A stretch of DNA of 64,000 nucleotides from Bifidobacterium bifidum ATCC 29521 = JCM 1255 = DSM 20456 (lineage in GTDB: Bacteria > Actinomycetota > Actinomycetes > Actinomycetales > Bifidobacteriaceae). How positions within the stretch are numbered: position 1 is the stretch's first letter; each line of letters begins with the position of its first letter. The stretch is taken from assembly GCF_001025135.1 (NCBI RefSeq), contig NZ_AP012323.1, positions 2,108,001-2,172,000 on the forward strand, given 5' to 3'. The notes below the pieces were generated by a model that did no database searches, was not told the DNA's origin, and saw nothing but the letters and a program-made list of their open reading frames with translations. A program made the translations under genes and the position numbers. Positions 20,444 through 28,945 of this stretch are shown here, piece after piece.

Positions 20444-23400
20444 TTACCGATTCGCGCGACGGCGCAGCGACAGCGTCACACCGCCTGCCGCGAGCAGCGC
20501 CGCCACTGCGGCAAGAAGACCGAACACATCCGCACCGGTTTTCGCCACAGCGTCCGGGGTCGGCTTCTGCACGTCGCCGGTACCGGCACCAGTGCCGTCA
20601 CCGGTACCGTCACCGTCCGGCTTTTCGCTCGGGTCTGGAGTGGGATCGGGATCCGGCCCGGGCTCCGGCTCCTCGACAGCCGCCAGCGTCGCCGTATATG
20701 TCACGGTCACGGCGTCCGCGCCCTCCGGCACGTTCGCCGAACCGACCACTTCATACCGGTGCGCCGCCGTATCGTTTACGGTCACGTCGATGCCATCCGC
20801 AAGCACATCCGCAGGCTTGAGGCCGTCCGCGACCAGGGTCCGCCCGCCGTCCTCGCCGATCTCGTAGACGGCGTAGCTGTCGGCGACCACCAGCGAAGCC
20901 GCCGCACCGATCTGCATGGTGTCGATGTGTGCCCTGTCGGTGCCCTCGACGCGCCCGACCGGCAGCTCGCCACCGTTTTCACTCGCTCCGACCAAAGTAA
21001 CATTGGCGGTGTCGTACGGCAGCGACGCGATGCGGCTGCTTGACACGTTGCTCGGGTACAGGTCGAGCGAGCGCATCATGAATCGCGCGTAACCGAGATG
21101 CCCGGCGTAGTTGAGCTGGCCGGCCTTGTTGAACCACGCGGTCTTGACGCTCGCGTCAGCGGCGACGACCTTGCCAATCCACGCCTGCGCGTCGATGAGC
21201 GGCAAATCGTCTTCCTTGGCCACCGTGCGCATAGCGCCTGCATACTCGTCTTCCCCGCCGCGCACGGTGACCGGCGTCACCAGCACGACCTTGGCGCCCG
21301 CCTCCTTCGCCTTGGCGGCCACGGAGCGAATATGCCCGGCGAACGCGGCGGCGTCGCTTTCCGCAAGAATCCCGTCAGCATCATACAGGTCCGGAGCCAA
21401 GAAGAGGATGTCCGGCGAATACTCGCCCACCATCGCAGCGTAGTCCTCGTCCATCTGCTTGGCAGTTAGACCGCCCTGCCCGGCCGCCACGAAGAACTTG
21501 GCACGCTGCAGTTCGCGGTCCGTGGCGCTCAGCCCGGTGACGTATTCCCAGCGCACGCGCTCGTCGAGCAGCTGCACGATGTTCTTGGCAATCAGATGAT
21601 CCGTATACCCGCCTTCGATGGTCTCGCCACCCACGAACACGATATTTTTGCGAGCACCGGTATCGGAGATGACCGGCTGCAACGCGTTCACCGCCGCATC
21701 GACCTTCGTCACCGCCACGGCACTGGTTTCGGCGCTGATTCGCTTGGCTTCCGCATCGGTCAGTGTGCGGCTCCATGCGGCGACGTAATCGACAATGCCG
21801 GTGAGCTGCTGCGCGCCGCCGGCGCTGTCGGCCCCGCGGATCGCGCCGGCCGTGGCCGTGTTCACCGTGATCGCGCCCGGCACGTTCAGCTGAGTGCCCG
21901 CGCCGCCGCTGATCGCGCGCATCGCGGCTCCGTCAACATAGATCGTGAAGCCGTTCGCCACGAAGTTCACGGACACCGTATGCCATGCGCCATCCGCGAG
22001 GTCGTTCGTGCCGACCGTGTAGAAGTCGCCGGTGTTGCCGGAGTTGAGGAACTGCACCAGACCGGTCGCGCTCAGGCGCACGGTCGCGCGGGTCGCGGAG
22101 TCGGAGTCGCCCAGCGAGAACAGCGTCTGCGGCTGTCCGGTCGCCGACGCACGGAACCTGATGGTCACGTTGGACTCCCGCTTGCCGGCCACAGCGCTCA
22201 CCACATCGCCGCCCAGGTCAACGTACTGTGCGCCGGAGAGGAACTTACCCACGGACTTGGCCGCGGCCGGGGCGGGTTCAAGCCCGTCCGAGCCCTTCAG
22301 CCCGTTGCCGTCGGCGTCCACCGTCACGGTCGGCTTGTCCAGTGTCGTGTCGGAGCTGCTCCACCGGGCGAGCGGGTCGTCGTTGGCGATCATATTGAGC
22401 GCTCCCAGCGTGAACTTGGCCCATTCGATGTGCCCGTTCTCGCCGGGGTGGATGTCGTTGCCGGCACCCATATACGTGCCGGATTCGCGGTTGCCGCCGC
22501 CGAGTTCCAGCCACTGCTTGTTGAAGTCCACCAGCAGCACGTTCTTGTCGAGCGCGAGTCGACGTTCCGCGTCAAAGTACGTGTCGAGGTTGGCGTTGAA
22601 CGTCGCGTTGGTCGTGTAGTTCTGCGTCTGCAGCACCGGGATGGCGCCGAGGTCACGGATCTTGTCAATCAGTGTGGACAGGTTGGCGGTGTACTGGTCG
22701 ACGGTGAACGCCTGGCCTGTACGCCCGTCGTTCATGCCGAACGTGAGGAACACGACGTCGGGGTGCTTGTCGGACACCCATTTCTCGAATGCGCCGTCCT
22801 TGAGCGGCCAACTGGCGTCCGCGCTGGAGATGCCGGTGTTCATGACCACATCGTTGGCGCGGGATACACCGCGCACCGGCGTGGTGTCCAGATGGTTCGC
22901 GAACAGTTCCGAATAGGTGCGGTAGCCGCGCGTGAACTGCACGCCGTGCGTGATGGAGTCGCCGGTGAACAGCCAGTTGATGCGGTCGGTCTTTGCGAGC
23001 TTTTCGGAGAGCGTCTGCCAGTCGTCGAGCGCCTCGTTGCGGGTCTTCCATGCGGCGATGTCCACCGGCAGTTCGACCGGCTGGCTCACGGTGACGGGGT
23101 CACCGGTGATGGACACTGATTCGAGCACCGTCTCGCCGCTCGCGTCTGCGGTGGCGTCGATGGTCGCGCTCGGCGTGAACGAGCCGGCTGTCGCGTCCGC
23201 TTCCGTCACCGTGTGGTAGGCGAGCCGCTTGCCGTTGCCGCTGACGCATGCACCGGTCGCTCCCGGATCCAACCTGCTCCACCGGCATACGGGCGCGGGG
23301 TTGCTCGCCGACTGCGGGGTCGTCACGCCGTCCAGATTGGATTCGCGCGGATAGACCGCGAATGACTGCGTGCCGACGTTCTCATAGGTGATCCGGTAGG

Positions 23401-25831
23401 TCAGCGTGTCACCGACCTTGACCGGGTCTCCGTTGTCATCGGTACGTTCGATGGTGAGTTTGAGCCGCTTGGCTGCGGGATCCGGGTCGGTGACAGTCAC
23501 CGACAACTCGCCTTCGGCGAAGCTGTGCAGCGTGTCTTCGGACTGCGCGTACTTGCCGGTGATCTTCATCGTCGCTTTCGCGACGGTACCACTGACAGCC
23601 GCCGCAGGCACAGTCACCGGAACGTTCACGGTCGCGCTCTGACCGGCGGCAAGATTGCCGACGTTCACGGCTTCGGCGCTCCAATCAGACGGCAGACCTG
23701 TGGGGGTCACGGTGACGTTCGTGTAGTCGGTCAGACCGTCGTTGGTGACGGTGACCGGCGCGGTCAGCGTCCCCTCGCCTTCCTTGACGGTCGCGGTGCC
23801 GCTCGCCGTGGCGGTGAGATATCCCAGCCATTCCATCGACGCGCGCGTGTAGGTGATGCTTTCGCCTTCGTACAGCAGACCGTAACCACCGCCGGCGGCG
23901 TCGTTCAGTGCGGTGATGACCGAGTAGGCCATCGAGCCTTCCTTGAACAGCTTGCCGGCCGACCATGTGGTGCCGTCATCGAATGAAACACGCACGACAC
24001 CGTTCGCACGGCCCTCGTTGCTCGCACGCGGCGCCGAATACAGCAGCACCTTCGCCTTCGCCGAACCTTCCGGAGCGTTCGGGAACGCGCGCGTGATCTG
24101 CGCATTGTTGTTCGGATCCGGCAGCTGGGTCTCCGACTTGATCGGACCATAGTTCACGCCGCCGTCCTCCGAGATCGCAACGCGACGGTATCCCGCCGCG
24201 CCCGGACGGGAATTGAGCATCACGCGACCGTCGGACAGCTCCACGACCTTGTTCTCGTCCATGTTCGCTTCGGTCACGGGGTTGCCGGCCTTCCAGGTCT
24301 TGCCATGGTCGTCGGAATACACGGACACCGCGATGTTCGTGTTGCTCGTGGTGCGCACAGCGTATTGCTGTATCAAACGGCCCTTGTACTGCCCGTACTT
24401 GAGCTGGATGCCATGGCCGGAGGATGCGAAACGGGACTTCCACTCGTCTTCGTGACCCTTGGTGATGTCTTTGGTGATGTTGCGCGGCTCGCTCCATGTT
24501 GAGCCGTTGTCGTCGGATTCCATGACGACGGCCTGCAGCACGTTGCGTGCATCTTCCACACCCAATACGGAGCCAAAGTAGCCCTGATCGTACGATTTCA
24601 CGCAGAACAGGAAGATCTTGCCGGCTTCCTCGTCGACCACATAGGACGGGTCGGAGTAGCCGTATTTGTTGGTGGCGCTGCGTCCCTGCGCCACGTATGC
24701 CAGCGTCTCCCATGACTTGCCGCCGTCCTTGGAGATGCGCTGCACGATCGAGTTCGGGTTGGGCGCGTCCGCCGCCGATTTCGGCCGCAAATCCCATGCG
24801 GCGAGAATCCAGCCGTTGGGTGCCTGCGCGATGGCGGGGATGCGGTAGTAATCGGTGTCACCGATCTGCTTGTTGGTCGCCAGCAGGAGCGGTTCGCCGT
24901 CATTGCGCTCCGTCGGCGTGGACGCGGCGTCGTCGGCCGGCCCCGCGACGGTCACCGTGCCGGTGGTGAACGTCATGTCATCTTGCAGCACCTGCGTGCC
25001 GTCGCGGTCCGATGTGGCGCGGAATGTGGCTGTCGGCGTGTATCTGCGGGCCACGACGTCCTCAGCGGTGATGACGTGATAGGCGAACCCACATGATGCG
25101 GTCCGGTTGGCCTCCACTCCGGATCGGCAGCTGTTTCTCGGATAGGACACCACGTCCACGCGTTCGATGTTCGACTCGCTCGGGTAGGCATAAATCTTCT
25201 GCGCGGTTTTGTTGGTGTAGGTGAAGTTGAAGGTCAGCCGGTCGCCGATCTTCACGTTATCGCCGAGCGTATCGGTACGCTGCATGGCGACGCGCAGTGC
25301 GGAGGTCGCAGGGACGGCCGGCACCGTCTCGCCGGTGATGTCGACGCTTTGCAGAACGCCATTGGTGCCGTCCTGAGTGGTCGCCGACACGGTCGCGGTG
25401 GGCGTGAAGCCGTTTGCGACATCGTCTTCGGTCACCACATGGTAGGCGAACTCCTTGCTCGCGCTCCAAGTGCATGCAGCCGAAGCACCCGCCGCGAGAT
25501 TCCCCCACCGGCACATGGGATTGGGGTTGCGCGCCGACTGCGGCGTGGCGACATTGTTGAGGTTCGACGCCGTGGGATACACAATGAAACCGGTATCGGA
25601 AACGTTTTTGTAGCCGAGACTGTAGGTGAGCTTGTCGCCGACTTCGGCCGGGGTGCCGTTGCTGTCGGTGCGGGTCAGGGTGAGTTGCAGATATTCTTGG
25701 GGTGTTTCGTCCGCCGCATTTGCGCTGATGGTGCCAGCCGGCAGCACTGCCAGCATGGCGATGGCCACCAGCAGCCCGCTGAGCTTGCGCATCAGCGTTT
25801 TTGCCGTGGCACGTCGGAATATTGTGGTCAT
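20444..25831 (-). CDS. siabb1: large surface sialidase with SGNH esterase domain (siabb1-type)
   Basis: A 1795-residue extracellular GH33 exo-alpha-sialidase. After a signal peptide (cleavage near residue 40) come two copies of a ~120-residue beta module (TLTRTDSNG..., QRTDTLGD...). The sialidase domain follows, with YRIPAIA near 329 and Asp-boxes near 370 (SKDGGKSW), 440 (SDDNGSTW), 507 (SDDHGKTW), 556 and 620. Then a NEW3-like domain (~690-790), a third copy of the beta module (~790-900), an SGNH esterase domain with GDSITHG (~956), GMND (~1032) and DIHPGENGH (~1128), a LamG-like domain (~1190-1370), a second degenerate SGNH-like domain (~1390-1590), and a Pro/Asp-rich spacer. It ends in VAKTGA, a hydrophobic helix and SLRRRANR, a wall/membrane anchor. 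The esterase probably removes O-acetyl groups from sialic acid so the sialidase can act. Length and architecture match the B. bifidum enzyme as I recall it. Confidence 0.9.
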   Translation of the reverse strand: MTTIFRRATAKTLMRKLSGLLVAIAMLAVLPAGTISANAADETPQEYLQLTLTRTDSNGTPAEVGDKLTYSLGYKNVSDTGFIVYPTASNLNNVATPQSARNPNPMCRWGNLAAGASAACTWSASKEFAYHVVTEDDVANGFTPTATVSATTQDGTNGVLQSVDITGETVPAVPATSALRVAMQRTDTLGDNVKIGDRLTFNFTYTNKTAQKIYAYPSESNIERVDVVSYPRNSCRSGVEANRTASCGFAYHVITAEDVVARRYTPTATFRATSDRDGTQVLQDDMTFTTGTVTVAGPADDAASTPTERNDGEPLLLATNKQIGDTDYYRIPAIAQAPNGWILAAWDLRPKSAADAPNPNSIVQRISKDGGKSWETLAYVAQGRSATNKYGYSDPSYVVDEEAGKIFLFCVKSYDQGYFGSVLGVEDARNVLQAVVMESDDNGSTWSEPRNITKDITKGHEDEWKSRFASSGHGIQLKYGQYKGRLIQQYAVRTTSNTNIAVSVYSDDHGKTWKAGNPVTEANMDENKVVELSDGRVMLNSRPGAAGYRRVAISEDGGVNYGPIKSETQLPDPNNNAQITRAFPNAPEGSAKAKVLLYSAPRASNEGRANGVVRVSFDDGTTWSAGKLFKEGSMAYSVITALNDAAGGGYGLLYEGESITYTRASMEWLGYLTATASGTATVKEGEGTLTAPVTVTNDGLTDYTNVTVTPTGLPSDWSAEAVNVGNLAAGQSATVNVPVTVPAAAVSGTVAKATMKITGKYAQSEDTLHSFAEGELSVTVTDPDPAAKRLKLTIERTDDNGDPVKVGDTLTYRITYENVGTQSFAVYPRESNLDGVTTPQSASNPAPVCRWSRLDPGATGACVSGNGKRLAYHTVTEADATAGSFTPSATIDATADASGETVLESVSITGDPVTVSQPVELPVDIAAWKTRNEALDDWQTLSEKLAKTDRINWLFTGDSITHGVQFTRGYRTYSELFANHLDTTPVRGVSRANDVVMNTGISSADASWPLKDGAFEKWVSDKHPDVVFLTFGMNDGRTGQAFTVDQYTANLSTLIDKIRDLGAIPVLQTQNYTTNATFNANLDTYFDAERRLALDKNVLLVDFNKQWLELGGGNRESGTYMGAGNDIHPGENGHIEWAKFTLGALNMIANDDPLARWSSSDTTLDKPTVTVDADGNGLKGSDGLEPAPAAAKSVGKFLSGAQYVDLGGDVVSAVAGKRESNVTIRFRASATGQPQTLFSLGDSDSATRATVRLSATGLVQFLNSGNTGDFYTVGTNDLADGAWHTVSVNFVANGFTIYVDGAAMRAISGGAGTQLNVPGAITVNTATAGAIRGADSAGGAQQLTGIVDYVAAWSRTLTDAEAKRISAETSAVAVTKVDAAVNALQPVISDTGARKNIVFVGGETIEGGYTDHLIAKNIVQLLDERVRWEYVTGLSATDRELQRAKFFVAAGQGGLTAKQMDEDYAAMVGEYSPDILFLAPDLYDADGILAESDAAAFAGHIRSVAAKAKEAGAKVVLVTPVTVRGGEDEYAGAMRTVAKEDDLPLIDAQAWIGKVVAADASVKTAWFNKAGQLNYAGHLGYARFMMRSLDLYPSNVSSSRIASLPYDTANVTLVGASENGGELPVGRVEGTDRAHIDTMQIGAAASLVVADSYAVYEIGEDGGRTLVADGLKPADVLADGIDVTVNDTAAHRYEVVGSANVPEGADAVTVTYTATLAAVEEPEPGPDPDPTPDPSEKPDGDGTGDGTGAGTGDVQKPTPDAVAKTGADVFGLLAAVAALLAAGGVTLSLRRRANR

Positions 25832-26103: not shown

Positions 26104-28608
26104 TCAGTGAGCGGAGCGGCGGCGCAGCGACAACGCCGCGACACCGGACAGCGCCAACAAGACGAACACGATGGACATGCCTGCCGTGGAAGCGCCGGTC
26201 TTGGACAGGCCGGGCTGCTCGGTGGGCACGTCGACCTTCGGGCCGGCCGGCTTCTCCGGTTCGGGCTTGGGTTCGGGCTTGGGCTCAGGGTCGACGCTCT
26301 TCTCGGCCACGTCAATCGTGAACGATGCCGTCAACGGATTCGCACCCTCCACAGGCACACTCACCGTGACCGTCACCACACCAGCCGCCGCGAACGGCTC
26401 AGCCAAATCGACCGCCTTGCCGTCAGCATCCACAGCCGACAGCGAATACTCGCCGGCAGCCAGCGCCTTCGACGAACCATCACTCATCGCCGCGGTCACC
26501 GACACCTTCGACGCATCAAACACGTCACCGACCTTCACACCAGCCTGCGACGTCACCGCCGAAACACCGGTGATGGTCGGCTCCGGCTCAGGATCGGGCT
26601 CGCTCTTTTCGGTGACGTTCACCGTGATGGAGCCGTCAAAGCCGGTCGTGGCGTCGGCATTCGCAGCGGACGTGCCGGTCACGCGCAGGACGATCTTGGC
26701 GACATCGTCCTTCTTGGCAGTTGCGGGAACATTCACCGTGACGGTCACGTCCTTGGACGCGCCGCTGGCAAGAGCGCCCACGTTCACCGGAGAGGCAGAC
26801 CATCCGGTCGGCAGATCGGCCGGAGTCACCGTCACGCCGGTGTAATCCACAGAACCGATGTTGCTCACCGGAACGGTCACGTCCACCGTGCTGGCACCCT
26901 CTTCAACCGAAGCGGTCACGTCGTCTGCGGTGGCGGACAGGTAGCCGAGCCAATCCATGGAAATGTGCGTGTACATGATGTCGTGGCTGTCAATGCCGCC
27001 GCCGGTGACCCAAGCGCCTTCGTACAGCAGACCATAACCACCGCCAGCGGCACCGCTCAGCGCGGTGATGACCGAGTAGGCCATCGAGCCTGCCTTGTAC
27101 AGCTTTCCGGATGACCACGTGGTACCGTCATCGAGCGAGATGCGGACCACGCCGTTCGCACGGCCCTCGTTGTTCGCGCGCGGCGACGAGTACAGCAGCA
27201 CCTTCGCCTTCGCCGAACCCTCGGGAGCGTTCGGGAACGCGCGCGTAATATGCGCGTTGTTGTTCGGATCCGGCAGCTGCGTCTCGTTTTTGACCGTACC
27301 GTAGTTCACGCCGCCGTCCTTCGAAATCGCCACGCGACGGTAACCGGAACCGTTACCCGGGCGGGAGTTGAGCATCACACGGCCATCAGACAGCTCCACG
27401 ACCTTGTTCTCATCCATCAGCATGCCCGTCACCGGGTTGCCGGCCTGCCAGGTCTTGCCATGGTCGTCGGAGTACACGGATACCGCGGCGTTCGAACCGG
27501 TCGTACGGCCCACGGCATACTGCTGAATCAGACGACCCTTGTACTTGCCGTACTTGAGCTGGATGCCGGCACCGGAGGTGGCGAAACGGGACTTCTACTC
27601 GTTCTCGTAACCCTTGGTGATGTCAGCGGTGATGTCACGCGGCTTGCTCCACGTCTCGCCGTTGTCCTTTGAGCTGACGACGACCGCATGCAGCACATTG
27701 CGGTTGCTCTCATCGACGCCAAGCTGAGAGTCGGCGAAGCCCTTGTTGTACGAGTGAACGAAGAACAGGAAGATCTCGCCGGTCTCCTTATCGACCACAT
27801 AGGATGGGTCGGAATAGCCGTAGCGTTCCGGGGCGTTCTTGCCCTGCGCGACATATTGGATCGGCGTCCACGACTTGCCGCCATCCTTGGAGATGCGCTG
27901 CACGATGGAGTTCGGCTGCGGGGCATCCCAGCACTTGACGCCGCTGCCGTTGGCCATCGCCGTATTGGGACGCTGGTCGAATGCGGCGAGGATCCAGCCG
28001 TTGGGCGCCTCGGCGAGCGCCGGAATACGGTAGCATTCGGTACCGAGGTTCTGGCGGGCGGTGGCCAGGCGCACGGCCTCGCCATCGGCACGGTCTGTGG
28101 GGATGGTGGCCGGATCGGGGCGCTTGCCTTCCTTCACGGTGACGGTATCGCCGGTGGAGACGATGTTGTCTTGCAGCACCTGAGTGCCCCCTCGGTCAGA
28201 GGTGGCCTTCCACACGGTACGCGGGGTGAAGCTGCCGGCCGTGAGATCATCCGCAGTGATGGTGTGGCTGGCCGTGGAGCAAGGGTAGGAAGCGCCTCCC
28301 GCAAGGTTCTCATAACGGCAGTTCGGCGTTCCTGTGGTCAGCACACCGCTCAGATTCGACTCGGCGGGGAATGCGGTGAATGCCGAACTCGTGTTGTTGG
28401 TGTTGGTGAAACTGTAGGTGAGCGTGTCACCGACATATACCTCGTCGCCGAGGGTGTCGGTACGCGTCATCGTGACGGTGAGCATGTCAGCATCATCGCT
28501 GGCCGCACTCGCGGTGGATACCCCTGCGGGCAGTACCACCAGCATGGCAGCGGCCGCCACCAGCGCGCCAAGACGGCGCAGCAGCGATGGCTTGGTCGAA
28601 TGAACCAT
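26104..28608 (-). pseudogene. siabb2: second surface sialidase (siabb2-type) interrupted by an amber codon
   Basis: Apart from one codon, this is a full 834-codon GH33 sialidase. It has a signal peptide, one N-terminal beta module (TMTRTDTLGDEVYVGDTLTY), a sialidase domain (CYRIPALAEAPNGWILAAFD, SKDGGKSW, SDDHGKTW, SLDDGTTW), a NEW3-like domain, an Ig-like domain and a C-terminal anchor (LSKTGA, hydrophobic helix, LRRRSAH). ATG 28608 is preceded by AGGAGAGG. At 27595-27597 the codon is TAG where the paralogue next door has TGG (Trp, EDEWKSRF), so translation would stop after 337 residues; the rest stays open in the same frame to 26104. It could be a recent null mutation, a sequencing error or readthrough. 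Confidence 0.85.
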
Positions 28609-28915: not shown

Positions 28916-28945
28916 AGTCCCATCCAGCGGATGCCAGATGGGACT
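28916..28945 (-). terminator. terminator of the dnaK operon
   Basis: On the minus strand, AGTCCCATC pairs with GATGGGACT around a 12-nt loop, followed by TTTTG, about 20 nt after the hspR stop. Confidence 0.65.

Follow-up and report, generated by a model that had tools for sequence, protein, structure and literature searches.

The window, a stretch of 64,000 nucleotides from the genome of Bifidobacterium bifidum ATCC 29521 (JCM 1255T), carried two adjacent sialidase genes on its minus strand, siabb2 and, downstream of it, siabb1 (Table 1). The siabb2 frame opened with an ATG at 28608, preceded by AGGAGAGG, and closed with a TGA at 26104. The first-pass annotation had described this frame of 834 codons as intact except for one amber codon, and the frame check agreed, the TAG at residue 338 being the only internal stop. 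The same annotation had placed TGG (Trp) at the aligned position of the paralogue, which was borne out, as siabb1 has GAAGACGAGTGGAAGTCCCGTTTC on the same strand where siabb2 has GAGAACGAGTAGAAGTCCCGTTTC around the stop. The frame beyond the TAG was open, LSKTG anchor included, in support of the proposal of a single-base nonsense change in a gene otherwise intact. Between siabb2 and siabb1, one promoter-like site was found on the minus strand (26009–25980; mean in shuffles 1.0), and no terminator-like site was found on that strand. Between the end of a MerR/HspR-like frame (28965) and siabb2, a 13-pair inverted repeat with a T-rich tail (28916–28945, minus strand) resembled a terminator.

Table 1. 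Sialidase genes of the window and parts of the interrupted frame (positions are those of the window).
Feature	Position	Strand	Basis or comparison
siabb2, exo-alpha-sialidase gene (GH33), 834 codons plus TGA, one interruption	26104–28608	minus	Pfam BNR_2/BNR_3; solved relatives such as 1eut
Amber stop (TAG) in frame at siabb2 codon 338	27595–27597	minus	
N-terminal part retained, 337 residues: signal peptide plus the beginning of the sialidase domain, including R194 and D228	27598–28608	minus	
Part lost: remaining sialidase domain (E400, R416, R489, Y511), C-terminal domains and anchor; frame open throughout	26107–27594	minus	
Y511 codon, aligned with Tyr370 of M. viridifaciens sialidase	27076–27078	minus	alignment to 1eut
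Sortase anchor motif LSKTG, residues 801–805, lost	26194–26208	minus	L801 likewise in BF-1 (PMC8603203)
siabb1, open frame for an intact sialidase of 1795 aa that includes a GDSL esterase domain; the Trp and the six mapped catalytic residues are all retained	20444–25831	minus	

With the stop filled, the siabb2 protein matched Pfam PF13088/PF13859 (BNR_2/BNR_3) above cut-off and contained five Asp boxes, four of them complete and one degenerate, consistent with a sialidase-type beta-propeller. Among solved structures, its closest relatives were sialidases, for example 1eut (E 2.2e-107), the enzyme of M. viridifaciens. The Tyr370 of that enzyme, presumably the nucleophile, aligned with Y511 of SiaBb2, and the catalytic roles of the R, D, E, R, R, Y set in SiaBb2 are assumed here from work on the 1eut enzyme. 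According to this alignment-based mapping, four of the six catalytic residues (E400, R416, R489, and Y511) lie after the stop and only R194 and D228 before it, and the translated product does not hold the complete set. Nor does it combine a signal peptide with a sortase motif, LSKTG at 801 lying beyond the stop. Judged from its sequence, siabb2 is by family the gene of SiaBb2, and its predicted translated product is an incomplete sialidase. A signal peptide on SiaBb2 has been described previously (PMC5626965).

A search of 112 Bifidobacterium genomes, including that of the strain itself, returned 18 matched stretches in 10 genomes, of which 17 were aligned (16 from nine further genomes plus the siabb1 paralogue, with the strain's own siabb2 left out). 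None of the 17 contained a stop, and at the codon-338 site, which 16 of them cover, Trp was found in 13 (12/15 without SiaBb1), so that homologues and paralogue carry a sense codon there. Trp was not universal at this position, since one stretch (L052) had a gap and the two most distant ones (L049 and L054) had other residues; the solved sialidase 1eut has Trp there as well. Identity between SiaBb2 and SiaBb1 in the catalytic part was 104/157 before the stop vs 175/211 after it; conservation thus does not drop in the part that is lost. In another Bifidobacterium genome (contig C63), two siabb2-like genes (L041 and L050), 62% and 59% identical to SiaBb2, were adjacent, a pair as in B. bifidum.

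Full-length SiaBb2 orthologues have been described in ATCC 15696 (835 aa; PMC5626965) and in BF-1 (BF1_0299, 834 aa, anchor at L801, listed with PRL2010 BBPR_1794; PMC8603203). The read-through frame of the present strain agreed with BF1_0299 in its 834 residues and in its LSKTG at 801, and the printed N-terminus of the BF-1 protein differed at one of the first 10 residues (PMC8603203). Published surveys disagree on the constancy of siabb2 in the species, SiaBb1 and SiaBb2 orthologues being stated as present across all B. bifidum strains in the available part of one report (PMC12856340), vs three adult-derived strains without GH33 genes in that of another (PMC10000437).

The whole-genome search marked one TAG inside the siabb2 frame and revealed no second full-length copy of the gene in the 2,211,039-bp single-contig genome, the next match being siabb1 at 65%. 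A third sialidase gene, SiaBb3-like, was present as an open frame of 1831 codons (L097, 780–6275, minus strand), and its N-terminus contained the signal-peptide string printed for BF1_0115/BBPR_1596 (PMC8603203). This contradicts the expectation of the first-pass annotation that the strain would rely only on the larger esterase-sialidase. Over seven Pfam families of the milk-sugar pathway and of anchoring, internal stops were absent from the matches to GH20 (0/4), GH29 (0/1), GH95 (0/1), GH2 (0/3), sortase (0/4), and LNB phosphorylase (0/2), and present in one of the three BNR_2 matches, siabb2. The resulting count of 1/18 covers the matched domain stretches only, in a partial survey of the pathway, and shows that stops are not spread throughout the assembly. 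Both fucosidase frames were open, at 1964 codons for GH95 and 1488 codons for GH29. Besides siabb2, the only broken pathway gene met in this partial survey was gltA.

The gltA gene, which encodes the LNB/GNB solute-binding protein and adjoins permease genes beside lnpA, contained an exact 17-nt tandem duplication that shifted the frame near the C-terminus (L080, 938–971; G000:C1, about 1241537–1241570). A frameshift in GL-BP, the gltA product, has been reported for JCM 1255T as the one exception to a complete enzyme set, sialidase being absent from the table rows compared in the available part of that report (PMC6143587). Elsewhere a "17nt frameshift" was ascribed to lnpA (PMC11206791). That assignment was rejected at face value, as both lnpA copies were open at 751 codons and the duplication sits in gltA; the published gene name looks like a slip for gltA. 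With the 17-nt duplication in gltA and both lnpA copies open, the genome therefore agrees with the lesion of JCM 1255T.

GCF_001025135.1 (ATCC 29521) has been used as species reference through GTDBtk (PMC13368793). Exo-alpha-sialidase activity is absent from JCM 1255T according to a second-hand statement in PMC11206791, the primary source being Kiyohara 2011. The same report found no growth on 3'/6'-sialyllactose, the only sugars on which failure was complete, growth on the other HMOs tested being slower. Its authors guessed at siaBb2 mutations and described the genes of the strain set as "highly alike"; the siabb2 stop is not mentioned in the available part of the text. In table 1 of PMC4559671, JCM 1255 was scored negative on HMO, LNnT, 2FL, 3FL, 6SL, and mucin, with strong positive scores for LNT and lactose; the text of that paper, unlike its table, placed JCM 1255 among strains with little capacity to grow on LNT. 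Point mutations or regulation were suspected by its authors, because gene numbers equalled those of good growers. Growth on 6SL is not a clean read-out, because JCM 1254, the source of active SiaBb2, was likewise scored negative on it (PMC4559671). Neither PMC4559671 nor PMC11206791, as far as their available parts go, names the lesion itself, and none of the titles among the literature matches listed concerned the siabb2 stop.

The function of the gene has been addressed in another strain, ATCC 15696, in which disruption of siabb2 markedly lowered sialidase activity and reduced growth on 6'SL after 24 h, while a plasmid copy of siabb2 restored the sialidase activity of the mutant, identifying SiaBb2 as the main determinant of the sialidase phenotypes there (PMC5626965). 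Because the type strain has been reported as sialidase- and sialyllactose-negative and engineered siabb2 loss gives a similar defect, the amber codon is most likely, with a probability of about 80%, a real strain-level loss-of-function mutation of siabb2, very probably present in the type strain JCM 1255T. The genome holds no further intact siabb2, and none of the 53 tRNA genes detected in it encodes a suppressor. Translation would stop after residue 337, inside the sialidase beta-propeller, and the 337-residue fragment, if stable, would be exported and unanchored; lacking the catalytic Tyr together with the Glu and two of the three Arg that bind substrate, it should be inactive. SiaBb1 and SiaBb3 would remain as open frames, yet SiaBb2 is the reported main determinant in ATCC 15696, and by analogy with that strain its loss would leave little or no exo-sialidase activity and free no lactose from sialyllactose. 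The sialidase-poor, sialyllactose-negative cells predicted in this way match the published behavior of the type strain. A complete absence of activity, if true, would require in addition that SiaBb1 and SiaBb3 contribute little or nothing on the substrates employed. The gene is known and the allele an ordinary nonsense allele, with no new mechanism involved.

A sequencing error, also raised in the first-pass annotation, is compatible with the sequence. Here the TAG would be a base-calling error in the assembly and siabb2 would be intact in the strain, as might be suspected from a single-base difference with every downstream feature intact and from the absence of the stop from the type-strain literature searched, within the parts available. 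An intact gene, however, does not predict the sialidase- and sialyllactose-negative strain that was reported (PMC11206791), the same assembly carries the gltA lesion described for JCM 1255T, and siabb2 alone carried an internal stop among the 18 domain matches. Such an error is thus considered unlikely.

The amber could also be real while the sialidase-negative state arises mainly from another cause, a defect of surface display, regulation or sugar uptake that would also lie behind the failure on 2FL and 3FL. The breadth of the failures in table 1 of PMC4559671, sparing LNT and lactose, points in this direction, but the strain grew, more slowly, on other HMOs in PMC11206791, failing completely on 3'/6'SL only, and the four sortase matches had open frames. 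The gltA lesion, for its part, should not block the use of lactose freed from sialyllactose. A different main cause is improbable on this evidence. Nevertheless, the amber does not explain the failure of JCM 1255 on 2FL and 3FL, and neither does the gltA lesion; a broader defect may play a part, the strain being 2FL- and 3FL-negative despite open frames for both the GH95 and the GH29 fucosidase. The high LNT growth in the table of PMC4559671 is itself a misfit with the gltA lesion.

Read-through of the amber by a suppressor tRNA or by near-cognate decoding, with some full-length SiaBb2 being made, would accord with a frame that stays open and conserved after the stop, but is very unlikely. The genome contained 53 tRNA genes (RF00005; tRNAs outside the Rfam model would escape this count), and ARAGORN, applied to the stretches holding all 53, gave sense anticodons only and no CUA anticodon. 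TAG ended 4 of the 31 selected long frames of the window, the siabb2 fragment among them, and 3/29 when both siabb2 halves were left out, the frames having been chosen by length and codon-position GC. Because TAG ends other long frames and no CUA tRNA was found, UAG is an ordinary stop here, which disfavors the suggestion of the first-pass annotation that the codon is suppressed. Programmed read-through or a recoded UAG was likewise not indicated, no UAG-decoding tRNA being found and UAG being used as a terminator, and the reported absence of sialidase activity (PMC11206791) also speaks against full-length product. That siabb2 yields two independent proteins, with translation of the second beginning internally, is hardly credible. 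An in-frame GTG at 27513 would give a 469-codon frame, and of the 10 listed in-frame starts within 300 nt after the stop, GTG at 27309 is the one preceded, at a distance of 7 nt, by a GAAGGA resembling a ribosome site, while GTG at 27399 has a closer AAGG. However, this GAAGGA belongs to the codons of a SKDGG stretch similar to an Asp box, initiation at 27309 would omit E400 and R416, and any internal product, lacking a signal peptide, could not meet the exported first part.

The first-pass annotation had also offered a recent origin, on account of the otherwise open frame, as one of three readings. It is plausible, but a lack of additional stops dates the change only poorly. Under a substitution model giving transitions a weight of 2 and each transversion one of 0.5, a random substitution would create a stop in about 2.1% of cases, and zero further stops are compatible with up to about 142 substitutions (95%). 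Because that many substitutions are allowed without a second stop, intactness alone is no proof of recency, and dating the mutation by the absence of further damage was dropped. A young allele, which is plausible, is better argued from the full-length orthologues in ATCC 15696 and BF-1, insofar as these are described in the available parts of the reports.

The siabb2 amber, read as a genuine loss-of-function allele, provides a specific molecular explanation for a trait that had been reported but left unexplained in a strain that stands for its species, namely the lack of sialidase activity and of growth on sialyllactose. Surveys of gene presence would miss such an allele, because siabb2 is present and nearly unchanged. 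If the allele is confirmed, JCM 1255T could serve directly as a siabb2-null in studies of mucin foraging, cross-feeding, and adhesion, and would be ill suited as a reference strain in these fields. A rather doubtful extension, drawn by analogy, is that the type strain may be a natural "sialidase cheater", which has lost its main surface sialidase, carries a frameshifted LNB-binding protein and lives on sugars trimmed by its neighbors, as the engineered ATCC 15696 siabb2 mutant did beside the wild type in co-culture on HMO (PMC5626965). If true, species-level statements on sialic-acid cross-feeding and on SiaBb2-mediated mucus adhesion that rest on the type strain would be misleading.

Reports on adhesion differ among strains. 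The siabb2 mutant of ATCC 15696 showed almost no adhesion (PMC5626965), whereas BF-1 mutants with a transposon in one or the other sialidase gene adhered to mucin as the wild type did (PMC8603203). A study of mucus adherence used the type strain JCM 1255T and named SiaBb2 as a possible adhesin (PMC7998455); because of the amber allele, the strain used there should be without anchored SiaBb2.

Compared with known systems, the locus resembles that of BF-1, in which a 1795-aa sialidase gene (BF1_0298) adjoins an 834-residue SiaBb2 with its anchor at L801, as here. SiaBb2 is full length in both BF-1 and ATCC 15696, whereas codon 338 is TAG in the present strain; the SiaBb2 of JCM 1254, from which active enzyme was cloned, is listed at 87 kDa. 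The gltA frameshift of JCM 1255T is alike in that it, too, is a single lesion of this strain and affects a gene for milk-oligosaccharide use, and differs in affecting a transport protein through a tandem duplication rather than through a nonsense codon. The engineered siabb2 disruption of ATCC 15696 (PMC5626965) shares with JCM 1255T the loss of the same gene together with reduced sialidase activity and 6'SL use; the lesion was engineered and complemented in that study, whereas here it is natural.
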